Below are positions 17,937 through 64,000 of a DNA stretch of 64,000 bases, in pieces (positions within the stretch are counted from its first letter, which is position 1; every line of letters begins with the position of its first letter). The stretch lies in the NCBI GenBank assembly GCA_028224375.1, contig JAOIVW010000013.1, positions 23,397-87,396 on the forward strand, given 5' to 3'. This DNA comes from Hellea sp. GTDB lineage: Bacteria; Pseudomonadota; Alphaproteobacteria; Caulobacterales; Maricaulaceae. Made by a program: the position numbers and the translations under genes. The notes below the pieces were generated by a model. The model was not told where the DNA came from. It worked only from the letters and a program-made list of their open reading frames with translations, and searched no databases.

Positions 17937-18572
17937 TCAGATTACAGCAGCCAGCTCGTTTTCAAATTGCTTTGGTACCGGATGAACAATTTTTAAAAGC
18001 TCATCTCTTCGATAAGCCATTGAACCGCCATCCCCGTAACTGGGGCGCGAATTTTGGTGGCCCATTAACAGGCAACGCAGGCCGTAATCCCAACCAGCCT
18101 CCAACATTCTTTTTTCAAACGAGTGCCTGAACGAGTATATTCGATGGTCTTTGCTAGGAAATAACTCTCGGATTCTGAAAGCCTTCATAAGTAATGCTGA
18201 GAGAAGGTTTCCTTTATCCATATAATTTGGAAAACCATTTGGGGCACGTTTCATGGCCTCCAGTGATACGCCGACTATTGGCACTTCACGCACCGAAGCC
18301 TTCGATTTCAACTGACGAACATTTTGTGGACGAATACGCAAGTGTGGGACGTCACTATCAAGCACGATATTTTCGGATATGAGATTTGACAATTCGCTCT
18401 GTCGGCAGCCCGTTTCTATCATGGCATAAACAAGCAGAATGGCTTCCGCATTCAAGCCTTTGAAAATTGTTGAGTTTAGAAATCTGGATTGGACCCAATC
18501 ATCCTCAAAATGCGGAATATCCTTTAGCTTGTGCTTTGCAAAACTTAGATTACGGAAAGGGTTCTCCCTCAT
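17937..18572 (-). pseudogene. Tyrosine recombinase/integrase, C-terminal catalytic part only (N-terminus missing or degraded)
   Basis: ETGCRQSELSNL...DHRIYSFRHSFEKRMLEAGWDYGLRCLLMGHQNSRPSYGDGG; an in-frame stop precedes the start; homologous to 63446-63979. Confidence 0.7.
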
Positions 18573-19061: not shown

Positions 19062-21059
19062 TCACGAAATGTTCAGAGTGCCATTCTCACGCGTAGAGAA
19101 ATGGCCTACCTGCATTTTTGGATCAAGTTTAGGTGACGGTATGGATGTTGCAAAAATGACCTGATGAGCTGGCCTAGCTTCCTCTGAGATACCTACAATC
19201 AGGTCTTGCAAATTATGAACCCGCTCAGGTTCCATACCTTTGTCTTCTAAGGAATCGAGTAATATCAGACGTGGATGGCGAAATTGCGGATCCTTTAAAG
19301 ATGCCGCGAACAAACCAATGAGGAAAGCACTCCGGAGATACGCTGTCGAACTCGCTGAAAAATACGTAGCATCATCAACCGTTATTCTATTTCCTGCAAA
19401 AGAAAAATTTACCATTTTGGGGTTTTGAAAGGAATCTTGCCGCTCTAGGTCATTTTTTAGAAGCTCAATAACATTTGCTTCGACCATATTATGTGCTTGC
19501 TGCGTTCGTTTTGCTTGTCTAGCCAACAAGGCTTCGAGCCTATCTTTAAACTCTTGAATACTTTTTGCGAGGTCGGCTTTTTTGTCAGCGAGCTCATCCA
19601 CCCTCTGCGCCATTTTTAACTGCCGGTCAGCATCAGCTATTTCTCTCTCGATATAGCCGAGTTTACGAAACATTTCTCGTATCTGCTTTTGGGCATTTGT
19701 TGTTGGCAAAGCTGTTACAGACCGGTATTCCGTCGCTGCTTCTTCCCAAGACTTACGTGATTTCGCTAACGCTTGTTCAGCAAGCTCAAACCTATCTTGA
19801 CGTGCCTCCTGAAGAAGTTTGGATTGCTTGAGTTGAATGCTTGCTTCGTTGATTAGAGCAACCAGTCTATTTTCAGCTCGCTCGGACACGCTCTCCTTAC
19901 ATAGCGGACAAGTAACTTGTGAAACATCAGGTCTTTCGCTTCTGACTGGTATTGTGTCCGTATCTGACATCTCGTCGCTGAGCTTATCAATTTTGTCTTC
20001 TGTAATATGTGAAATTGGAACGTAACACGCAGGACAAGCAGAGAACAAAATGCTTTCAATGTGTTCAGAAACATCCCGTGCTTCTTGTAACTCGGTAAGT
20101 CGGCTTTCCAAGGAGCCTATATACTGTTCTGAGTCTGATATTGAGAACTGGAGAGCCGCCAAAGTTTTTTCATCTTTGGCAATCTGCGCTTGAAGGATTT
20201 GGACGCGCTTTGAGGCTTCTGTTTGAGCAGCGATGGTCAACTCATCATCGCCAGATTCGGCATTTGGATTGGTTTCTGTATTAGATATTTGACGGAGTAG
20301 ATTCTCCCGTTGTGTCTCCAGTTTTTTCCTTGCCGCCAAAGCCCACTCAGTGCTGACTACTTCTTGGTCAGTAGAATTTAGGATGGCTCTTAGGGACCTT
20401 AATTCTGAGGTGGCGTCCTTTAGTGAGGCTTCTTCACCTCGAATTTTTTGCCTGGCACCATATATTTCGTTGCTGTATGCGCCAATCACAAGTGACCCTA
20501 CAGCTTCACGTACATCTCTTCTGTCGAAAGAATCGCTTTTGAACAGATCTTCTACAGGGCTTAATTGATCGGCATACACCAGTCTTAATAATTGATGTAC
20601 GGTGATAGTTCCTGTGTCGTCGGTTGTCGCCTCCGGAATATTAAGCAATCGAAACAGGGCTTGAGAAAAAGATTCCTTATTTTTGGACCGACTGTAGGGA
20701 TAGCGAATCCAATCACTAGAGGGCGCCAAGTCAGCTAATTTCAAAGGTCCGCCAAAAATTGACATCGCACTTTGGGCTGTTTCCGAAATTTCACGGCGCA
20801 AAGTTGCTAGCTTTCCATTTAAACTAACCTCGAGCCAAACGTCATCACATAGGAGAGCTTTATCGCTCCAAGCACGTAAATCTCCCCCAAGGGCGTAATA
20901 TATGAAGTTCAAAATTGTCGATTTACCGGAAGAGTTTTCTCCAATCAGGACATTTACTCCTTGATGAAAAGCTTCATCGTAAGCGACATTTGCACCACGG
21001 GTGACTTTTAGACGCTTTACTATGAGAGTGGGATCAAAAATTGGTCTAGCGATCGTCAT
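19062..21059 (-). CDS. Rad50/SMC-like ABC ATPase of a multi-component conflict system (ABC-3C-like)
   Basis: Walker A GENSSGKST; coiled coil with two CxxC (CPAC, CPLC); late LILLDSLEDKGM Walker-B-like region. Confidence 0.8.
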   Translation of the reverse strand: MTIARPIFDPTLIVKRLKVTRGANVAYDEAFHQGVNVLIGENSSGKSTILNFIYYALGGDLRAWSDKALLCDDVWLEVSLNGKLATLRREISETAQSAMSIFGGPLKLADLAPSSDWIRYPYSRSKNKESFSQALFRLLNIPEATTDDTGTITVHQLLRLVYADQLSPVEDLFKSDSFDRRDVREAVGSLVIGAYSNEIYGARQKIRGEEASLKDATSELRSLRAILNSTDQEVVSTEWALAARKKLETQRENLLRQISNTETNPNAESGDDELTIAAQTEASKRVQILQAQIAKDEKTLAALQFSISDSEQYIGSLESRLTELQEARDVSEHIESILFSACPACYVPISHITEDKIDKLSDEMSDTDTIPVRSERPDVSQVTCPLCKESVSERAENRLVALINEASIQLKQSKLLQEARQDRFELAEQALAKSRKSWEEAATEYRSVTALPTTNAQKQIREMFRKLGYIEREIADADRQLKMAQRVDELADKKADLAKSIQEFKDRLEALLARQAKRTQQAHNMVEANVIELLKNDLERQDSFQNPKMVNFSFAGNRITVDDATYFSASSTAYLRSAFLIGLFAASLKDPQFRHPRLILLDSLEDKGMEPERVHNLQDLIVGISEEARPAHQVIFATSIPSPKLDPKMQVGHFSTRENGTLNIS

Positions 21060-21567
21060 ATCGAAAATCCATTAATCCCGAACGGTCTTTCAACCCTCCT
21101 TTTCCCAGTAGCTTGTAGGACGTCAAGATTGACCTCTGGACTGCCATGAGCATTGGTCTAGCTTGTAAACTTAAAATGCAGCTTTCCTTAAGCGAAGAAG
21201 GAATTGCGTCAATTTGAGGTGCGATCCATCCCTGTGAGAATTGTTCACCATTAATATAACCAGCCTTCGCTAAAGTCGAAAAAGCGGCCTCTTGAGTGGA
21301 TTCCATTCTATTGAAAAGAGTGACTTCATCCGGCAAAAGACCGTACCGTGAAATCTGAATTTCGTTAATAGCAAGACGTCTAATCTTCATATCGCCACGC
21401 TGGCCCTTGAAATTTTTGAGAGACTCGGGAAACGCTAGATAGAAGTCAGCGATTCGGAGTCTGTCCTGCTCAACTTTTTCTACCTCTGGAAGGCCCAAAA
21501 AAATCCGTAAATAACGATGGATTGTATGATAAGCGTCGAAAGCGCCTTCGTAAGTAAGATCAGCCAT
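21046..21567 (-). CDS. Putative ABC-three-component middle component
   Basis: DAYHTIHRYLRIF...DRLRIADFYLAFPESL pattern; overlaps both neighbours in the operon. Confidence 0.6.
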   Translation of the reverse strand: MADLTYEGAFDAYHTIHRYLRIFLGLPEVEKVEQDRLRIADFYLAFPESLKNFKGQRGDMKIRRLAINEIQISRYGLLPDEVTLFNRMESTQEAAFSTLAKAGYINGEQFSQGWIAPQIDAIPSSLKESCILSLQARPMLMAVQRSILTSYKLLGKGGLKDRSGLMDFRYDDR

Positions 21568-22117
21568 GATGCCACTTCACAAAACACTGTTCAGCTAGCC
21601 AGTAAAGCATCCCAAAAACTGCTTCATCGTCTAAATGAAATACGTCGGTATAGCACTCGTCAACAATTGACTTAACAATTTCCGTATGAATCCTCATATT
21701 TGCTTGAGCCTCGGTCAACGACGGTAAGTCAGGATATATCGTTTTATTAAATGCCATTCGCACACGAGTTAAATAATGCACAAAAATTTCCTGAGCGCTC
21801 GCGAACATGGTGTACCTTGACAAAAGCTTTGCAAAAGCTTCTTTCTGCTCAATTGCATCAAGGTATGCGTGGCCTAGGCCCGCTTTTTTCAGCTTACTTT
21901 CCAATCCTTCGATCCCGTCCGTTGACTGCCTTTGATGGTAGCGAGCGAGTTCAGATATTGTCTCTTTGGTGAACACTTCGGCAGCAGACTCCGCTTTGAG
22001 TTTTTCGAGCAATGCCTGTATCTTTGACGGTGTAGAATTGTAAACAGTCGTAATCTTATCGCGAGCAACCATATCGTTGCCAGCATTAGCTTTCCTTTGA
22101 TCAACCACAGACTTCAA
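21560..22117 (-). CDS. Putative third component/effector of ABC-3C-like system, with N-terminal VVDQxKANAxxDxVxRDKITT motif
   Basis: TTG start at 22117; helical body; overlaps downstream gene by 8 nt. Confidence 0.6.
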   Translation of the reverse strand: MKSVVDQRKANAGNDMVARDKITTVYNSTPSKIQALLEKLKAESAAEVFTKETISELARYHQRQSTDGIEGLESKLKKAGLGHAYLDAIEQKEAFAKLLSRYTMFASAQEIFVHYLTRVRMAFNKTIYPDLPSLTEAQANMRIHTEIVKSIVDECYTDVFHLDDEAVFGMLYWLAEQCFVKWHHG

Positions 22118-35379: not shown

Positions 35380-37131
35380 TCAACTAATAGCTTTTCGGCG
35401 TGCGGCTTCACGTTTTTCGGCCAAATCAGATTCTAGGTACTCCAGAACGCCATTTTCATTAATTTCTAAAGAATAAACATCCCAACGACTAGACCGAGAT
35501 GCTTTTTCTTTCATATAGGCCATGACAACCCTTTCACCATCTGAACGGAGATTGATTGCCCCGTAAGAAGTAACGGCTTTAACTTTTGACTCCTCATCCA
35601 GGCGATCAAATTCTTCTTGCAATTGCGCTTTCTTACCTAAGTTCTTTTCTGCTTCTATTTTACCCTTTATTTTTGCGGCCTGAAACCATGGAGTGTCTTC
35701 TTTATTGATGAACTCTTTCGCTGAACGCGACAATTCCGTGCTAAACACAAGTGGCCGCTCGCCATATCCATTACGCCCAATCGCGCCTAAAGTATCGCAA
35801 CGCGGATGAGCGTGACTTTCTTCGTCTCCACTCGATATGACCGTAGCTGTTGCATTTAACACCTCCAGAAACTCATCCTTAAAATCCGCACTACCATGAT
35901 GACAAGATTTAGCGACGTCGACCTCAAAGATATCAGCAGCAATTTTCATTGCGTCACGCATAGTTTTACATTTTTTATCAAAAACATTTTTTCCTGTGTA
36001 ATGTTTTAAGAGGAACATTTCGGCAGAGCTATTCAAATCGCCCCCGAACAACAGGCGTAGATTTTTGTATTGCAGCTTGAGCAATATGGAGTGGCCATTT
36101 TTGGTTTTTCCAGAGTTCATACTCGTTGTTTTTTCTTTCGGCTTTTTATCAAAGACTCTCAAAGAGTCCTGTCCGTTCACCTCTTCAATGACTGGGCCGA
36201 CAATACGAATTTCGCAGCCATCAGGGTTGTCCGGGCCAAATCCGGGCAGATAACTCAAGCCGTCGTGTAATTCGCCGTCTTCAGTGGAAAGGTTTGAGAT
36301 ATTAGGAAACCTGCGCCTGCCATCAGAATTCGTAGCTGTTTGAGCTGTATTTAATAAGTTCGGGAACTGTTTGGCCCGTCCTGAAGAGGTTTTGATCCAT
36401 GCCTTCTGTTCAGCCAATAAGTCTGACAATTCTCCATCTGTCTTGATAAGATCCGTTAGAAATTTTTGTCCGCTTTTCTCTGCAAAAGAACCCAGAAGAT
36501 AATCTGTCGAACTACTTTGTTTTCCATTTCTGTCAATTTTGAATTGTTCGACAAGTCCATTGTGATAAATTTGATCGCAAGAAACGTTGTCATCTTCCAC
36601 GATATCTTGAAATCCAAGGTAGTGATCGTTGTCGGGATGGGTGATAATAAATCCATCAAAATCATTTGACGCTTTGAATCCGGCAAAGCGCCATTTCAGA
36701 TAACGATACATATTATCGCCTTTACCAGCATCTATGACGTATTTTTTGTTGTCGGGTGTTATCATGACGGCGCCATCGCCTTGTCCAACATCAATAAATA
36801 TCACCTCAAGCAGGCGGTTAGGGCTTAGATCTTCTATTTTCATGTAGCCGCTGACGCCGCGAACACGAACTGGAACCATACTTTTTTCGATTTCCGCAAG
36901 CTTGCTGTCGACGAAAACTTCTTCGGGGGTCGTTCTTATGTCGGGAACATGTTCTTTAGGAGCCGGTGTTTCTACACGGTAGTCAAAATCAGTGACTTTG
37001 ACCCAATCTCCCCAAAGAAGATGTTTCATCTTTGCAAAAACAAGTTTATTTTTACTGTTACGACTAAAACTGTAAACATGGCTGGTCGGATAGCCTGAAA
37101 ATCTAATATCACCTGTCTGTGGTCTTGCCAT
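35380..37131 (-). CDS. ComEC-like metallo-beta-lactamase-fold hydrolase
   Basis: VIFIDVGQGDGAVMITPDNKKYVIDAG...FIITHPDNDHYLGF (HxDxDH-type: HPDNDH); CHHGSADF; no TM segments seen. Confidence 0.8.
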   Translation of the reverse strand: MARPQTGDIRFSGYPTSHVYSFSRNSKNKLVFAKMKHLLWGDWVKVTDFDYRVETPAPKEHVPDIRTTPEEVFVDSKLAEIEKSMVPVRVRGVSGYMKIEDLSPNRLLEVIFIDVGQGDGAVMITPDNKKYVIDAGKGDNMYRYLKWRFAGFKASNDFDGFIITHPDNDHYLGFQDIVEDDNVSCDQIYHNGLVEQFKIDRNGKQSSSTDYLLGSFAEKSGQKFLTDLIKTDGELSDLLAEQKAWIKTSSGRAKQFPNLLNTAQTATNSDGRRRFPNISNLSTEDGELHDGLSYLPGFGPDNPDGCEIRIVGPVIEEVNGQDSLRVFDKKPKEKTTSMNSGKTKNGHSILLKLQYKNLRLLFGGDLNSSAEMFLLKHYTGKNVFDKKCKTMRDAMKIAADIFEVDVAKSCHHGSADFKDEFLEVLNATATVISSGDEESHAHPRCDTLGAIGRNGYGERPLVFSTELSRSAKEFINKEDTPWFQAAKIKGKIEAEKNLGKKAQLQEEFDRLDEESKVKAVTSYGAINLRSDGERVVMAYMKEKASRSSRWDVYSLEINENGVLEYLESDLAEKREAARRKAIS

Positions 37132-47280: not shown

Positions 47281-47541
47281 ATGCATTATTCTCAAATCTA
47301 TTGGACTTTAAAATCCATATTGGCAAAATTGACTGGACGTTCGTCCAGTGAAATTTTTGCTGACCAAAACCTTGTCACAGATCTTAGATTTACCGATCAA
47401 GGAAAAGCGTCTTTAAATGCTGATATCAATCGCGGATTTGCGGATGAAAATTTTCCAATTTCCCCTGCTTTACGGCCTGGTGAAACACGAAATGCAGCCA
47501 CCGTGAGAGATTTATATAAACTTATATCCAAAAGGTTTTGA
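47281..47541 (+). CDS. Acyl-carrier-protein-like small protein lacking an evident attachment Ser
   Basis: ILAKLTGRSSSEIFADQNLVTDLRFTDQGKASL...NAATVRDLYKLI follows an ACP-like layout without DSL. Confidence 0.4.
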   Translation: MHYSQIYWTLKSILAKLTGRSSSEIFADQNLVTDLRFTDQGKASLNADINRGFADENFPISPALRPGETRNAATVRDLYKLISKRF

Positions 47542-47543
47542 AA

Positions 47544-48767
47544 ATGGGAAAGTCAAGTCGGGTTGCTGTTTCAATCCTATTCGCAAGCTCTATTGGCTTT
47601 GTTTCAAACGCACAAGTCCCTGCTAACCTCAAAAATATTCCTCCGAAATATGATCGTAACGGCAATGGAATTGTCGAAAAGGGATCTGAACTAAACATTT
47701 ATCTGCTACATAAACGGAACTCAGTACTTGAAAAATATGATATAGATTTGGATGGCGTTTTATCGCCAAGCGAAACACAATCTTTAAATGAAACATTTGT
47801 AGATGATGATTTGAAAATTGATATTCTTGACGCTGAACAATTCTTAGGCACGCGGCAAGGGGTAGCTGTAGGTTCGCCAGTAAAGCCTAGCCTAACCCTC
47901 GCAAAAAATCAATGCCATGAAGATAAAAGTGCAATATTGCTGCGTTCGGCATATTTTACGCCCTCGGTTTTCGGCTCTTTACCGAAAACAGATAAGTCAC
48001 ATTTAGAGAGCGTTACTCCCGCAACATTTAGCTTTTCTCGTAACAACGTAACAAATAACGAAACGCTCACAGCGACTGGAGCTCTCTCATTCGTCAAACA
48101 TCGCGCATACAAAGATTGTCCCGAGAACCAAGTCGGTAATTTGAAAGAGAGTGCGTACTCGGCGGGTATCGTGTTTGATCGCTCTAGGTCCTCAGGCTCG
48201 GACGATGAAGGCGTTGATAACCTTACTTTTAACCTGAATGGCGATTACTTCTTTCAAGGGTGGCCAGTATTCGACAGCCATAACATTACTGCCTCTGCAG
48301 CTTTAATGTCCGATTTCGGTTTTCGTAGCGCTGTAATCTCTACAAGCGCTAATTGGCAACCTACTCACAATCGAGCAGCGATTGGTGTTGCTCGCCGTAT
48401 TGATGGCTTGCCTATAAGTTTCCGCTGGCAACCGCGCTTGGCTTTGGATTTTCGGACGACCTTAGATTCTGGAAGTAATACGGAGCTAATGGGTGAAAGT
48501 GACAGGTTGTTTATTAGCCCTTCAATTTCCGCTCAATTATTTTTAGAAAATGACGTTTTTAAAGGGACTTTTTTCGAGGTGAACTATCAGCACTCAGAGA
48601 ATATTTTAGACGGTGATACGAGTTTTGATTTCTTTGAAGGCTCCCTAAACATCCCTATCGATAGCAGCCAACACTTTCTGTTTCAAGCTCGCTATCGCGA
48701 CGGCAATTTGCCTTCCTCTAGACAGGCAGTTGACGATTATCTTCTCGGCCTCGGAGTAAGGTTCTAA
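47544..48767 (+). CDS. Signal-peptide protein with EF-hand-like motifs and outer-membrane-barrel-like C-terminus
   Basis: PPKYDRNGNGIVEKGSE, KYDIDLDGVLSPSE; alternating beta pattern; C-term ends ...LLGLGVRF. ATG at 47544 preferred over TTG at 47538. Confidence 0.6.
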   Translation: MGKSSRVAVSILFASSIGFVSNAQVPANLKNIPPKYDRNGNGIVEKGSELNIYLLHKRNSVLEKYDIDLDGVLSPSETQSLNETFVDDDLKIDILDAEQFLGTRQGVAVGSPVKPSLTLAKNQCHEDKSAILLRSAYFTPSVFGSLPKTDKSHLESVTPATFSFSRNNVTNNETLTATGALSFVKHRAYKDCPENQVGNLKESAYSAGIVFDRSRSSGSDDEGVDNLTFNLNGDYFFQGWPVFDSHNITASAALMSDFGFRSAVISTSANWQPTHNRAAIGVARRIDGLPISFRWQPRLALDFRTTLDSGSNTELMGESDRLFISPSISAQLFLENDVFKGTFFEVNYQHSENILDGDTSFDFFEGSLNIPIDSSQHFLFQARYRDGNLPSSRQAVDDYLLGLGVRF

Positions 48768-50587: not shown

Positions 50588-50908
50588 TCAACGCTCGCAA
50601 GCTATTCCATCATTATCCCTGTCCAAATGGGAGCCGTACCCGGCCTGCCCTCGCCTGATGTTAGATCTACCCGCTTTTCGAGCGGCTGTGCAGTTTGGAT
50701 AATAGACACTTGATGTGCCTTGATAGGACGTCTTCGGAACGGATTTTTTTGATGTAGCCTTTGCACCGTGACAATGCCGCGTGCCCGCTTTTTTATCATT
50801 GTGACACCCATCGGCAGCCGTTCGCCCGGGATGGGCAGTCCCGTTTGGAGCGATAGCTGTAAGAGATAGACCAAGAAGAGCTGCCGCTGCATACACCTTA
50901 AATGTCAT
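50588..50908 (-). CDS. Secreted excalibur calcium-binding-domain protein
   Basis: Signal peptide; YYPNCTAARKAGRSNIRRGQAGYGSHLDRDNDGIACER. Confidence 0.85.
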   Translation of the reverse strand: MTFKVYAAAALLGLSLTAIAPNGTAHPGRTAADGCHNDKKAGTRHCHGAKATSKKSVPKTSYQGTSSVYYPNCTAARKAGRSNIRRGQAGYGSHLDRDNDGIACER

Positions 50909-51918: not shown

Positions 51919-52890
51919 CTACTTTTCGGCCTCGACCTCAACGGACAAAGCTAGAGTTAAAGCGGTAGCATATCGCTCCGCGGCTTGCACCAAGCGGCGT
52001 TCTGCAATCGGAGACGCAAAATCGACATAACCATGAGTGACTGTAAATGACCGGGCGCCTTTGTAGCGTTGTCCTTCAACTGGAACAAAATAATCGCGGT
52101 CAACATCATACGCACAAAACTCAGAACCGTCTTTCACGCGGCAATATTGGACGGGCGGATCACGTACTAGCATGAGAGACTCATTTGCCCATACAACCGG
52201 ATTAAATTTTGAGTCGACCTCATCAGATACGGGAACATCTATCGCTCCCAATCTGTCCGCATGTGTCGCAATGTCAACTTGCTCGGCTAACCCGAAAAGC
52301 TTTGACTTTTTGGGAGCATCAGACTCAACCAAACATGTATCCCAAACCGCGTGAAGATTATCCGTACCGGACCGGCAAGGTTTTGATTTTCGTCCGGCCT
52401 TGGGGCCGCGTTTCACATGCACGCTATTTCCGCCGCGATCATCAGAAAATCCAACGTGCATAGGCTGATGGATATCGCCAATCCAATGCCCCAACAAAAC
52501 CATGGCTTCCGCGCGGTCGGCATCTGAACTGTCAGGGTCCGACAGGGTTTTAAAATCATCGGAGAGCGCTGTGAAAATACAAGTTTTCGCCTCCCCGCAA
52601 TTCGCAGTTTCGATTTCAGTTAAATCACGGGGGAAGTTTACATAATGCTGTTTCGGCTTTTTGCGCGGGAACCGATCTGCCCAAGCGCAGGCTGTATTCA
52701 ATTTCTCATCTTCAGGATGAGCTAACATCAGTTCATCGACAGCTTTGCGAATTTCCGGTTCCAACTGCCTATAGGTCAGCTCACAAATAACCGCATGACC
52801 ATGTTCCCCCCAAGCCATAGCACTGGTTGGCAACAGGAGAGCTGTCAGGACGGTAAAGGCGCCGGAAAAACTCAATAGGTTTTTAGGCAT
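51919..52890 (-). CDS. S1/P1-type nuclease
   Basis: Signal peptide then WGEHGHAVICELTYRQL; VLLGHWIGDIHQPMHVGFSDDRGGNSVHV. Confidence 0.93.
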   Translation of the reverse strand: MPKNLLSFSGAFTVLTALLLPTSAMAWGEHGHAVICELTYRQLEPEIRKAVDELMLAHPEDEKLNTACAWADRFPRKKPKQHYVNFPRDLTEIETANCGEAKTCIFTALSDDFKTLSDPDSSDADRAEAMVLLGHWIGDIHQPMHVGFSDDRGGNSVHVKRGPKAGRKSKPCRSGTDNLHAVWDTCLVESDAPKKSKLFGLAEQVDIATHADRLGAIDVPVSDEVDSKFNPVVWANESLMLVRDPPVQYCRVKDGSEFCAYDVDRDYFVPVEGQRYKGARSFTVTHGYVDFASPIAERRLVQAAERYATALTLALSVEVEAEK

Positions 52891-52979: not shown

Positions 52980-53222
52980 TCATCTAAAGGACCCAATCAT
53001 CTGAGCTATTCGGGATGTACGAACCCTAAACAACCAAGATTGCTGTTGTCCTATTTCCGCCAAAATCTCTTGATCAGACCGCTTTAAAAACAAATGCGCG
53101 CGAATATCTTCAGCTGCTACTTCATACCCACGGCTTTTTAAGTATTTCAAAAGCACGGCTTCTCTCATGTCCGAGATTCTTGAGTCCAACTGCTTTTGGT
53201 TCTTTGTTTTCTTCGTCAACAT
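52980..53222 (-). CDS. Small hypothetical protein, last gene of five-gene membrane operon
   Basis: 80 aa; start overlaps the stop of the upstream gene at 53222. Confidence 0.6.
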   Translation of the reverse strand: MLTKKTKNQKQLDSRISDMREAVLLKYLKSRGYEVAAEDIRAHLFLKRSDQEILAEIGQQQSWLFRVRTSRIAQMIGSFR

Positions 53223-54202
53223 TACGGCACCAGATATTTGTAAAAATGGGTTTCAACCGTTGCCAAATAGTCTTTATATCCACTCTTATTTTCGGCGGAC
53301 GTTTGGTCAATAACACGGACAAAGAACCTGCATTGATTCTCTACGCTCCAATCAAACAACCCTCGGGTTTGATTCAAAAATTCACGTCGACTCAATACAC
53401 GGTCATAATCTGGATCCCGGGCATCACCTTTAAACACGGAAAGATCTTGACCGGTACGATCATCCCCCAAAACCACAAGTAATCCATCGTCCTTAATGCT
53501 CACGTTATAACTATATAAGGGTCGTTCAGGATTACTGGGAGACGCCCAACATGGCGGGTATACCAATCCCTTCCCGCCGGACAGATCCGTCAAATTCTCA
53601 TTCAATCTATTATTGGTACGTTGCAGACGTTCAATAATCTGCTTCGCTTCTTCGATATTTTCAGGCTCCAAACCGGAAACATCCAACCTTTTGTCGGAAG
53701 GACAAGTTTCTAATGCCGCTTGTGCTGTTGGCGCCGAGAAGTCATTCGCAAGTTGATCTTTTAATTGCTCCAAATCGCCGCAAATATTTTGATATTCTTT
53801 CGCCAAAAGATCAGCATCGCTCATGGCTTGCAATCGCGAACGCAATACGTCCGGATTGTCAACCTTGACACCCTGCTCGCGCAAGCGCTCTCTTAACTGA
53901 ACAAATTCATTTACAGCCGTAATCATAGAGTCCGCGTCCGGGAGTGCCTCGACAACAGATTCATAACTTACGACTTGCTCGCGCAGACTGGCAACACTCG
54001 ACTGAATTTCAGCCGTCGTATCGGCCGGAAGGTTCGCTTCAACCAGAACTTTTTTTACGGGGTCCCATTTAATTTTTTCAATATTAAGAAGGTAAGAAAA
54101 CACAAGCAACAACAAGAACAGAAGCAGTAAGAAAATTTCCGCCAGCGTCAGGCCAAGGACAAGACCGCGGCGATAATGCTTAGAGTTGCCGTTAGAGGCC
54201 AC
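53222..54202 (-). CDS. Single-TM coiled-coil protein, MotB/ExbD-like N-terminal topology
   Basis: RRGLVLGLTLAEIFLLLLFLLLLVFSYLL with acidic residue at TM entry; long coiled coil; unassigned C-terminal domain. Confidence 0.65.
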   Translation of the reverse strand: MASNGNSKHYRRGLVLGLTLAEIFLLLLFLLLLVFSYLLNIEKIKWDPVKKVLVEANLPADTTAEIQSSVASLREQVVSYESVVEALPDADSMITAVNEFVQLRERLREQGVKVDNPDVLRSRLQAMSDADLLAKEYQNICGDLEQLKDQLANDFSAPTAQAALETCPSDKRLDVSGLEPENIEEAKQIIERLQRTNNRLNENLTDLSGGKGLVYPPCWASPSNPERPLYSYNVSIKDDGLLVVLGDDRTGQDLSVFKGDARDPDYDRVLSRREFLNQTRGLFDWSVENQCRFFVRVIDQTSAENKSGYKDYLATVETHFYKYLVP

Positions 54203-55811
54203 GACCGGCCTCGCGCGTCACTGTCGAGGCAAGGCTTCCGAGCGACTCATATACACTTGCTGTCGCTTTTCGCATGCGCTCGCCCTCAAGCTCGGCCGCG
54301 TCTGTATAGGTCTTCATTGCCGCGACGTGGGCATCCATGACCTGAGAGCCTTTTTCTACGGCCTCTAATTGCCGCTGAAGGTTTGTGGTCATTTTTTCCA
54401 AAGTGTCATCAAGCCTCTCAATACGCGTCTCAAGGCGCTCGGATAAAGCCATGAAATTATCAGCGCCTTCATTCCGAACTTCGATAGACTTTGACGTTCG
54501 CTCCAAGCTTTCAGCCGTTTTGATCAAAGAATTTTCACTCGCCTGCAACCCATCTCCAATTGCGCTAAAAGCCGACTTAAGAGTTTCAGGTTGCGCATCA
54601 ATGCTGTCCATACGCGATGCCAGAGACTGAGTTGAATTCCCGAGCATTTCAGCCGTTTTGAGCAAAGCATCGGAGCGTAATGTGAAGGCCTCTAAAAAGG
54701 AATCCATCGCGGCCATTCTGTCATCAAGACTATCGGCTGTACCCAGATTTCTATCTTTCAGGTTACGCGCCTGTACTTTGAGCATTTCCGCCAATTCTTC
54801 ATGTGTACTCGAAACACTTTTCATAACCGTATATTTGTAGTCATCTAAATCTTGCCGCGCGCGCCTTAATTGGCTCTCAAACTCTTTGGCTTCTCGTGTT
54901 AGAGCCAGTCGTGCATCCGTTTCAACATCATCGAGTTCGTCTCTGAACTGCATCAAAACCATTCGCATAATTACGCCGGCAGCCGTTGATCCTAAGGCAA
55001 TACCGAAGTCCTCTAGCAGTCTTTGGCCTACCTCCGCACCAGCGAGACCGAATAGGGCGCTGATCAAACTCGCTAAGGTGTAGGTGAGGCCCAAGTAGTA
55101 GCAATTATCGCCGATGCGATCGATGCGCATGCGGTTACCTTGGCGCAATCCGGCGAAAACCCCGTAACAGACAATAGCCAAAACGGCCATCATGGTGACA
55201 ATCCAACTAGGTGTCGATGTAAAGGTTTTTACTATTACAATCAGGCCAAACCCGACGAGGATAAGCAAAACATAGGGCATACGCTCCGCGAAATCGTTCA
55301 TCTGGAGTGTTGGCAAGTTACCGCTTTGTTTTCTTTGCATTGCCGTAACGGCCAAAGGCGCTTTTTTAGCCTCCGCCTTTTCCGCTCTTTCGTCGTCTCT
55401 TTTTATCTTTGCCTTACGTGCTTCTTCCTGCTTTTCTTCTTTTCGCGCCAAGGCCTCATCTTCAGAGACTGTTTTTTCTAGATCTGAAGTCGGCACATCT
55501 TGAGGGCTTTTAGGGGTAGGTGTCGCAGGTTTAGGCTTAGATGCGGGCTTAGGTTTCCTTGCGGCGCCAGCGGGCTTCTTCGCCGTTTTTTTAACTTCTG
55601 ATTGCTCACCTGCGCCTATGTCTATCTTCTCAGACTCAGTTTTAATATTTTTCACTGAGTCTGGACCTTCGCCTAAAGGCAGCTCTGACTGAGATGTTTC
55701 AGCCTTTTCTAGGCCGGGCAGAGATAGCGTCCGACGCTTTTTGCCTTTTACGGTTTTTTTCTCATCATCCGCCATTTTCGCCTCAATCTGGTCAACAGGT
55801 GACCACGTCAT
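54192..55811 (-). CDS. MotA/TolQ/ExbB-like membrane protein with long coiled-coil tail
   Basis: TMs plus YYLGLTYTLASLISALFG and FGIALGSTAAGVIMRMVLMQF resembling the MotA/ExbB TM3/TM4 pattern; Lys/Ala/Pro-rich N-term. Probable start MADDEKKTVKG (~55775). Confidence 0.6.
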   Translation of the reverse strand: MTWSPVDQIEAKMADDEKKTVKGKKRRTLSLPGLEKAETSQSELPLGEGPDSVKNIKTESEKIDIGAGEQSEVKKTAKKPAGAARKPKPASKPKPATPTPKSPQDVPTSDLEKTVSEDEALARKEEKQEEARKAKIKRDDERAEKAEAKKAPLAVTAMQRKQSGNLPTLQMNDFAERMPYVLLILVGFGLIVIVKTFTSTPSWIVTMMAVLAIVCYGVFAGLRQGNRMRIDRIGDNCYYLGLTYTLASLISALFGLAGAEVGQRLLEDFGIALGSTAAGVIMRMVLMQFRDELDDVETDARLALTREAKEFESQLRRARQDLDDYKYTVMKSVSSTHEELAEMLKVQARNLKDRNLGTADSLDDRMAAMDSFLEAFTLRSDALLKTAEMLGNSTQSLASRMDSIDAQPETLKSAFSAIGDGLQASENSLIKTAESLERTSKSIEVRNEGADNFMALSERLETRIERLDDTLEKMTTNLQRQLEAVEKGSQVMDAHVAAMKTYTDAAELEGERMRKATASVYESLGSLASTVTREAGRGL

Positions 55812-55823
55812 TTTTAAAATAAA

Positions 55824-56636
55824 TCAGAAGGTTTCTACGCTTTTCACGTTTCCGCCAACGTTTTGAAAATAATCTTCCCACCACGAAATATGCTTCTGCC
55901 CTTGCAAGGCCCGATCTGTTGGGCGGGCCACATACCCAATAGTCACATCGGCACCTCGCAAATCGGTGATCACGGACGACCATGCAGGCGTACGGGATAA
56001 CTCGCGCACAGACTGATGAATTTTGTAGTGATTTGAGATTGCCGAATATTGAAGCATATCCGACACAATTATAAAATTGCGTTTTGTTGTGTCTGGCGTG
56101 CGAGCAAATGAGCGAGTTGCACCATCTCTGATAGACTCCATCAACGGCGAACTTTCGGCCTTTTTTTCAGTTAAGGCCAATTCCAAAGCCCCTTCAATTG
56201 CCCCTTGAAATTCGACAACAAATTTTTTCTCGTCGCCTTTAGCGTTTGTCGTCAGAGCTGAACCTGCAGGCCCGGGATTGCATTTCGAAAATGTGGGTTG
56301 CGTCAACTTCTGTCCGGGTTCAGCCATGAGGTAAATGTCTACACGCCCATATTTGGGAATTTGAGATACATTTTTTAGAATAAGTGCGAGAGCCCGCTCT
56401 CGCTGAACAGGATCAAGACTGTCAGAGGCATCTACCATCACCATTAAGACCGCAGGCAGATCATCTTTTTTGCAAAAGGTCTCTTTATCAACGCTCGCAA
56501 TATCCGCCTTACGATTTGAAGCTGCAATAAATATCAGCGTGCCGAGCACAATCACGCCAAACAGTAAGGCTGCCGCTATTATATTCTTTTGCAAATGGCC
56601 GCGCCCGCGCCGTGATCTGCGTCTACGCCGCGCCAT
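55824..56636 (-). CDS. TM-anchored VWA-like protein
   Basis: Arg-rich N-term, one TM, then AVLMVMVDASDSLD (MIDAS DxSxS-like) and NFIIVSDMLQYS. Confidence 0.7.
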   Translation of the reverse strand: MARRRRRSRRGRGHLQKNIIAAALLFGVIVLGTLIFIAASNRKADIASVDKETFCKKDDLPAVLMVMVDASDSLDPVQRERALALILKNVSQIPKYGRVDIYLMAEPGQKLTQPTFSKCNPGPAGSALTTNAKGDEKKFVVEFQGAIEGALELALTEKKAESSPLMESIRDGATRSFARTPDTTKRNFIIVSDMLQYSAISNHYKIHQSVRELSRTPAWSSVITDLRGADVTIGYVARPTDRALQGQKHISWWEDYFQNVGGNVKSVETF

Positions 56637-57990
56637 TGACGTCCTCCAATAATATAGCCCTCAATTCTTTATGGTCTTGCTCTATATCATCCAACAAGGC
56701 TTGGGCACTTAGCGAGCGTTTTTCAGCCTTGGATAGAATTTCAGCGGGCGGTGTCATAGTATTATGAGGCGGCGTCTGAAATTTAGATTTTTCATCAAAC
56801 GGCGTTTCGAAATAGCTCGGCTTCGGACTTGTTCTTACCTTGCTATTTGTCAGGCGGTAGCGATCAATGAGGTGACGCGCTGCCGACAAGAGGTCGAGTT
56901 CAAATTGGTCATAACGCCGCTCGAAATTGGTAATGTCATCATATAATTGTTGGTAGCGCCTGACATGGTCACCCTGAGCAGAAATAGATGACTTCAGGGT
57001 GTCGATAATGTCCTCAGTGCCATCCACAAAATCCAATTTAAATTCATCTTTGACATAGCCCAAGTGGCCCTCAGCAGCTTTGACTTTCTTATATCTTCTT
57101 TCGAACCCCGGAATTGGATGCCCAAAAGTGACCCCTTTGCCCAAGGCAATTAAACCAAAGGCGATTCCTAAAATCAGGAGGAGGACAGAAACAATGTCCA
57201 GGCCCAAGAAATCAAATTGGAATAACCTAGAGATTGCTTTGTCAGATGCAATTGCCAATTCAATGTCCGGATTCTCAGCCTTTATCTGCCGGTAGAAAGC
57301 TACAACACTATGAAATATGAGCAAAGATAGAAGAGATATAGCTAAGACAAAATAACCCGAAATCTTTTGCCAGATGACATTGCAGTTTTTATATCGGACA
57401 CCAAAGTAACCCAAAGCAAAAAAGCCAAAGACGTTCATCGTTGAGATCCCGGCAGCGATTATGACCCCCCCTAAAAGACCAAGCTCATTCCCCTCGGAGA
57501 AAAATGCCATATTAGCAAGAGCTTCGAGGAAAACCACAACCGTTAGTATGGCAAAATTCAGAAACGAGTTCTTAGTCATGGAGGGAGCATCGACGATATT
57601 TCGGGGCTTCGAAAACCGCTCCAGCATAAGCTCGCTTCCGTCGAGCTCTTTGCGGGCTCTGGCTAGTTCGCGCTTACGATTGTCGATCTCTAACTGAAGG
57701 TGTTGCAATCGCGCTCTCGCTCGGGGCACAACTCCCGCATCCATTAATCGAGTGGAATGTTCGGCTAATTCTTTTTCGCGCAGAGCTCTATCGCGCTGAA
57801 CGTCAGCTCTTACTTTAGTGTGGTACGTCTGAACCTCATTTAGTATTTTTCGTTCAAACCCACTGAGTTCCGTAGCTTGCGAGCCGGGTAAGTCATTTTT
57901 CCCGTCCTCGGCGGCTGTTAAATCAATCTTGAGGATGGCGGCAATCTTGTCTTCATCAAGAGGCTTCAAAATAGAAAAACTGCGTGACAC
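56623..57990 (-). CDS. Polytopic coiled-coil membrane protein, first gene of five-gene operon
   Basis: N-terminal coiled coil, four hydrophobic segments, cytosolic C-terminal helical region. Confidence 0.65.
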   Translation of the reverse strand: MSRSFSILKPLDEDKIAAILKIDLTAAEDGKNDLPGSQATELSGFERKILNEVQTYHTKVRADVQRDRALREKELAEHSTRLMDAGVVPRARARLQHLQLEIDNRKRELARARKELDGSELMLERFSKPRNIVDAPSMTKNSFLNFAILTVVVFLEALANMAFFSEGNELGLLGGVIIAAGISTMNVFGFFALGYFGVRYKNCNVIWQKISGYFVLAISLLSLLIFHSVVAFYRQIKAENPDIELAIASDKAISRLFQFDFLGLDIVSVLLLILGIAFGLIALGKGVTFGHPIPGFERRYKKVKAAEGHLGYVKDEFKLDFVDGTEDIIDTLKSSISAQGDHVRRYQQLYDDITNFERRYDQFELDLLSAARHLIDRYRLTNSKVRTSPKPSYFETPFDEKSKFQTPPHNTMTPPAEILSKAEKRSLSAQALLDDIEQDHKELRAILLEDVNGAA

Positions 57991-63445: not shown

Positions 63446-64000
63446 TTACTTTTTTAGATCATTTATCAAACACGGCATAAGATTGCGAAAGTGCTTATCA
63501 ATCGGATGAGCTATCTTTAGCAATTCATCTCTACGGTAAGCCAATGACCCGCCGTCACCATAATTTGGGCGAGAGTCTTTATGACCCATCAGAAGGCATC
63601 TCAAACCGTAGTCCAATCCAGCCTCCAGCATTCGTTTCTCAAATGAATGCCTCAGGGAATAGAGACGATGGTCTGGCGTGGGTTGCAGCCCCCTTACTCT
63701 AAGACCGTCCATTACTGCCTTGGACAAGATATTCCCTTTATCGCGATAACGCGGAAAGCCATTGGGTGCGCGTTTAAAGGCCTCAAGAGCGCATCCGACC
63801 AATGGAATATCACGTGACGAAGCGGAGGCTTTAAGCTGGCGATCTGCTCTAGAACGAATTTGAATGTAAGGCACCTCTGCATCAAGTTTGATGTTCTCGG
63901 GTAAAATATTGGAAAGCTCACTCGGTCGACACCCTGTTTCAATCATCGCATATACCAATAACGTCGCGTCAGCATTCAAGCCTTTGAAAATTCCCGGCTC
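63446..64000 (-). CDS. Tyrosine recombinase/integrase, partial (5' end outside window)
   Basis: ETGCRPSELSNI...DHRLYSLRHSFEKRMLEAGLDYGLRCLLMGHKDSRPNYGDGGSLAYRRDELLKI; frame stays open to the edge (EPGIFKGLNADATLL). Confidence 0.88.
   Translation of the reverse strand, partial: EPGIFKGLNADATLLVYAMIETGCRPSELSNILPENIKLDAEVPYIQIRSRADRQLKASASSRDIPLVGCALEAFKRAPNGFPRYRDKGNILSKAVMDGLRVRGLQPTPDHRLYSLRHSFEKRMLEAGLDYGLRCLLMGHKDSRPNYGDGGSLAYRRDELLKIAHPIDKHFRNLMPCLINDLKK

Follow-up and report, generated by a model that had tools for sequence, protein, structure and literature searches.

A cassette of genes for a putative membrane motor was found in a 64,000-nt stretch of contig JAOIVW010000013.1 from Hellea sp. 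(hereafter the window, whose numbering is used for all positions). Its five open reading frames (ORFs), which we call A–E, are located on the minus strand at 52980–57990, with the overlaps and small gaps that a preliminary description of this DNA had reported. We give an even chance to the explanation that these genes belong to an undescribed ZorAB-like envelope system, in which an ion-driven motor and periplasmic nucleases act against incoming DNA. A more specific version falls somewhat short of even: an envelope immune system in which the ZorAB-like motor has a four-transmembrane (TM) protein and a VWA protein as partners, a periplasmic SNase or S1/P1 nuclease destroys DNA as it enters, and recruitment to type III-A CRISPR has taken place in one lineage. 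Support comes from the conservation of the cassette, the predicted VWA fold of B, the homology of many D relatives to ZorB, residues in C and D that are compatible with an ion path, SNase genes adjacent or fused to the cassette, and CRISPR and other defense genes in its neighborhood.

Relatives of the cassette were sought in two rounds. In the first, C was compared with 296 alphaproteobacterial genomes and B with plasmids. Plasmids of Rhizobium, Sinorhizobium, Microvirga, Paracoccus and Tistrella carried relatives, as did several genomes, and the series A-B-C-D was already visible in these loci. In the second, the GTDB genome collection was scanned with C; 213 stretches were found to encode a relative of C, and the best 80 of them were examined. 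In 79 of these 80 alphaproteobacterial loci, A-B-C-D occurred in the same order on one strand with A as the first gene; the remaining locus (L040) is interrupted by the end of its contig. Because order and strand were the same in so many loci, the arrangement is not due to chance, and the genes brought together in the preliminary description do co-occur in other genomes. Overall, the four genes A–D are present in 98 fetched loci, and most of the copies we have found come from rhizobia and other Alphaproteobacteria.

C and D look like a distant MotA/ZorA and MotB/ZorB pair. The model of C has four TM helices at residues 171–288 and long helices afterwards (hydropathy counted three TM segments in C, four in A and one each in B and D). 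Two Thr residues of C, T245 and T276, located in TM3 and TM4, were invariant in 35 of 35 sequences, as was a TM Glu of D, E22, in 27 of 27. The acid of the shaft lies within a ring of Ser/Thr residues in both ZorAB and MotAB (PMC11890865), and, by analogy, the invariance of E22 and of T245/T276 fits such an arrangement.

A peptidoglycan-binding OmpA domain (Pfam) was detected in 21 of 27 members of the D family, and these OmpA-type relatives matched several PADLOC ZorB models (best E value 5e-25), by which comparison they are homologous to ZorB. The D of the window matched neither OmpA nor ZorB. It represents a rarer sub-type in which a C-terminal “PPCW...CRF” domain replaces OmpA; this sub-type was found in 9 of 395 genomes of the class, some of the matches being weak, and searches of plasmids and phages returned no homologues of the window D. 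The lack of an OmpA-like domain noted in the preliminary description is thus true of the window D, but as a family trait it was rejected, since it belongs to a rare sub-variant. Where D shares the C-terminal domain of the window D, small E-like genes lie directly 3′ of it; those at L125 and L128, and also at L165 and L174, have weak similarity to E and occupy the same position.

Proteins A and B are the conserved partners of this pair. A matched no known family, and residues E156 and N160 were invariant in an alignment of 36 sequences. The AlphaFold model of B (mean pLDDT, the predicted local distance difference test score, of 88) has a VWA fold, as judged by Foldseek, whose PDB matches were mostly VWA domains with E values down to 1.8e-5. 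The assignment of B as a VWA protein was therefore upheld, but its metal-ion-dependent adhesion site (DxSxS...T...D) is incomplete: D69, S/T71 and D193 are retained, and position 73 is mostly Pro or Asp. Residues C55, C119, D69, D72, S163, P164 and D193 were invariant in 37 of 37 sequences. An Arg-rich N-terminus followed by one TM helix, together with the invariant C55/C119 pair, suggests that the domain of B is periplasmic and probably has one disulphide. Rows of plasmid homologues were excluded from the alignments used for structure prediction. When profiles of A, B and C were compared with solved structures, the hits were mainly coiled-coil noise or there were none.

Three genomes (G188, G494 and G659) have A-B pairs that lack C and D, which is why A-B may be a separable module. 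Pairs of this kind, with C and D missing, were seen at L114, L116, L117 and L176. Those at L114 and L116 lie near tat-like genes, and the pair at L117 precedes a protein in which a VirD4-like motif was recognized by eye. More distant B-like VWA proteins were observed in Pseudomonadota outside the Alphaproteobacteria (L119–L123; genomes G603, G450, G611, G496 and G499). They adjoin a TM/coiled-coil protein of ~520 aa and, in several cases, also an OmpA-like lipoprotein; possibly, these represent a separate, related envelope gene set.

The commonest neighbor family of the cassette was the thermonuclease-like SNase, and those copies whose sequences were read start with a signal-peptide-like segment. 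Distances were determined for 82 loci with enough flanking DNA (39 non-redundant), in counts that take in the fused genes and one ORF (L049) that automatic boundary calling had extended too far. Of the 82 loci, 31 (22 of the 39) had an SNase gene no more than 500 bp from the cassette; 40 had one at up to 1.5 kb, and widening the interval to 6 kb added one locus. That is, SNase genes are concentrated at the cassette, either upstream or downstream, and this adjacency is scattered across the B+C tree. In two loci from different families, L124 and L126, D continues at its C-terminus, behind the OmpA domain, into the SNase (Pfam SNase E values of 3.4e-13 and 9.7e-7). These fusions join the putative motor shaft and the nuclease in one protein and so make the model directly testable. 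A third candidate (G786) was checked and is not a fusion. In L074, an Excalibur domain is fused to the cassette-linked SNase; a protein encoded downstream of the window cassette has this domain too (Table 1).

No SNase match was found in the genome of the window, an assembly that is 89% complete. In the window, an S1/P1 nuclease gene begins 89 bp past the stop of E. Its product has a signal-peptide-like start (AMA|WGEHGH) and the motifs HWIGDIHQPMH and NLHAVWD, giving an N-terminal Trp once the signal is cleaved and the His/Asp ligands, and by these sequence features and its PF02265 match it belongs to the bacterial S1/P1 nuclease family. A second S1/P1 gene was found near the cassette of L045. 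An EF-hand-like protein is encoded at 47538–48767 of the window, and a relative of it (2e-15) lies near the S1/P1 gene and cassette of L045. The four genes A–D stand as a conserved set, but the system proposed in the preliminary description is probably not limited to five genes, because an adjacent or fused secreted nuclease recurs.

In one genus, the A–E cassette lies within a type III-A CRISPR-cas operon. The order at L125 (genome G135) is cas6, A, B, C, D, E, CARF, cas10, csm2-like, csm3 and csm4, all on the same strand and either closely spaced or overlapping. PADLOC recognized Cas6 (2e-85), CARF (8e-106), Cas10 (3e-98), Csm3 (3e-59) and Csm4 (3e-52); the csm2 label is based on position. 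Three further genomes of the genus have layouts that agree: cas6, A, C, D, E and cas10 at L165, where B is hidden by an overlapping ORF call and was detected separately; and, as partial evidence, cas6, A, B and C up to the contig end at L166 and E, CARF, cas10 and csm genes at L174. Downstream in G135 (L175) there are repeats that resemble a CRISPR array in appearance. This placement ties membrane surveillance, as we propose it, to RNA-guided immunity. Other defense or candidate defense neighbors include GajA of Gabija (L081), a PDC-S37 match (L045), SngB/BrxD (L078), STK_OB (L118) and an OLD-like ATPase (L128). The SNase adjacency and fusions, the placement in type III-A cas operons and the defense neighbors had all escaped the preliminary description.

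Table 1. Genes of the window cassette and two neighboring genes (window numbering).
Feature	Position	Strand	Description
A	56623–57990	−	455 aa, GTG start; four TM helices between two coiled-coil regions (ORF, hydropathy)
B	55824–56636	−	270 aa; predicted TM-anchored VWA-fold protein (AlphaFold model, Foldseek)
C	54192–55811	−	539 aa; putative MotA/TolQ/ZorA-like channel subunit with long coiled-coil tail
D	53222–54202	−	326 aa, GTG start; putative MotB/ZorB-like shaft subunit, TM Glu22
E	52980–53222	−	80-aa basic protein (ORF)
S1/P1 nuclease	51919–52890	−	Secreted, candidate effector; PF02265, 5.1e-41; putative member of the system
Excalibur-domain protein	50588–50908	−	Possible accessory; PF05901, 2.9e-16

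The genes of the window cassette are tightly packed (Table 1). A and B overlap by 14 nt, B and C are separated by 12 nt, C and D overlap by 11 nt, and the stop of D and the start of E have one base in common (TAATG). No curated Pfam or NCBIfam cut-off was reached by any of A–E, and the weak PADLOC matches were to C alone, mostly along its coiled-coil part. From the reading of ORFs, the cassette adjoins Trb-like conjugation genes, in agreement with its earlier portrayal as cargo of a conjugative element. Two related tyrosine-recombinase ORFs (17937–18572 and 63446–63979, ~68% nucleotide identity) may bracket that element; the second is truncated where the window, and with it the contig, stops. 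Near the left end of the element, a three-gene set with an AAA/SMC-like ATPase (19062–22117) may be another defense or mobile-element module. A 583-aa protein encoded at 35380–37131, amid the conjugation genes, had a metallo-beta-lactamase match below cut-off. Elsewhere, DUF4236 proteins were observed near the cassette in 14 loci, on the same strand every time (e.g., L118, 12519–12806, the only one checked with Pfam; and after D in L035, L045, L054 and L055).

From these data we infer the topology of the proteins, the assembly and activation of the motor, the role of the nuclease as effector and a function against phages, as follows. C would form a channel ring in the inner membrane with its long tail in the cytoplasm, and D would be the central shaft, having an acidic TM residue and a periplasmic domain that serves as an anchor. 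A, with its four TM helices and coiled coils, and B, whose VWA domain is probably periplasmic, would be dedicated partners that sense or transmit. Activation could follow a disturbance of the envelope or binding through the periplasmic domains of D and B. The force or positioning of the motor would then bring the nuclease onto phage or conjugative DNA crossing the periplasm. The nuclease, encoded adjacent to the cassette or fused to D, would be delivered at the motor or tethered to it, and in the window the S1/P1 enzyme would take the nuclease slot.

Several findings weigh against this explanation. Foldseek placed the C model closest in the PDB to proteins that were for the most part TolQ, ExbB or type II ZorA, but every E value was >0.2, and profile-profile comparisons of the C core with ZorA, TolQ, ExbB and MotA were weak. 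The fold likeness of the C model is accordingly suggestive only, and of the MotA/ExbB-like channel claimed earlier it is the distant resemblance of the C and D pair that stands. About half of the loci had no SNase found nearby. The S1/P1 link consists of the window and one distant neighbor, and, as the genome of the window has other S1/P1 matches, the gene is a putative member of the system. No known Zorya effector was seen. Many cassette copies sit among metabolic genes, for which reason the defense association is clear in places and not universal. The earlier suggestion of an anti-phage role gains support from those neighbors, and such a role would be consistent with them.

The cassette could instead encode a host envelope machine that takes up or digests environmental DNA, for phosphate scavenging or transformation. 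The secreted nuclease would then trim DNA, the motor would drive its transport and the defense neighbors would be incidental. Secreted nucleases beside a motor fit this, as do the many chromosomal copies in soil bacteria amid metabolic genes. However, the embedding of the cassette in type III-A cas operons of one genus, its sparse presence (a B match in 17 of 399 genomes of the phylum, part of them weak) and the ZorB homology all argue against it, and we consider it unlikely. We similarly doubt that the cassette is a ZorAB-like motor against phages that works mainly through an effector in the cytoplasm or one still to be recognized, with the secreted nuclease as a separate, helpful neighbor. 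The loci without a nearby SNase and the long cytoplasmic tail of C would be explained by this, and the effectors of Zorya do act in the cytoplasm (PMC11890865), but fusions of D and SNase in two unrelated genomes and the scattering of SNase adjacency over the tree point the other way. An accessory to the conjugation of a mobile element, e.g., for surface exclusion or help with DNA transfer, seems very improbable, given the many chromosomal copies and the CRISPR or Gabija neighborhoods of others, despite the Trb-like genes beside the window cassette and the conjugative type assigned to 11 of the 20 plasmids that carry a B homologue.

The system we propose, a ZorAB-like envelope motor with periplasmic nucleases, is most readily compared with Zorya, in which an ion-driven motor is coupled to cytoplasmic nucleases; if our explanation is true, a related motor with periplasmic nucleases would be a separate way to stop DNA at the cell boundary. 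As in Zorya, the putative channel subunit has a long tail, predicted to be cytoplasmic, its putative shaft partner bears an acid in the TM helix, and ZorB models match the OmpA-type D relatives. In contrast to type I ZorA, the TM core of C is smaller; the cassette here has the conserved partners A and B, and the nucleases that go with it are predicted to be secreted and in some loci are joined to D in one protein. Filing the cassette as Zorya was rejected, as the window C scored 13.9 bits against the ZorA model NF033914 (cut-off 190) and no Zorya effectors were seen, so that the distinction from Zorya drawn in the preliminary description holds. NF033914 had no match in the genome of the window (G000), A, B, D and E had none in PADLOC, and ZorC/D, ZorE and ZorF/G were absent from the Pfam-scanned window neighbors and from the neighbor listings (the top 25 families in one of them). 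Within the open-access library searched, no published system had this set of genes.

The putative pairing of channel and shaft, with invariant Thr residues in TM3 and TM4 of C and the invariant acid of D, resembles that of MotAB, TolQR and ExbBD, whereas there were no matches of C members to Pfam MotA_ExbB, and the cassette has no flagellar, Tol-Pal or TonB gene context and has A and B in addition. Accessory genes of type III-A CRISPR-Cas offer another parallel, as the cassette of one genus lies between cas6 and CARF/cas10-csm, but most copies, including that of the window, had no cas genes seen adjacent, and no CARF domain was found in A–E. Finally, SNIPE is a membrane nuclease proposed to cut DNA at entry, as a single protein with DUF4041 and a GIY-YIG nuclease in the cytoplasm (PMC13190303). 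The idea of cutting DNA at injection is the same in both, whereas here the nuclease is an SNase or S1/P1 enzyme that is predicted to be secreted, and the motor is separate from it.
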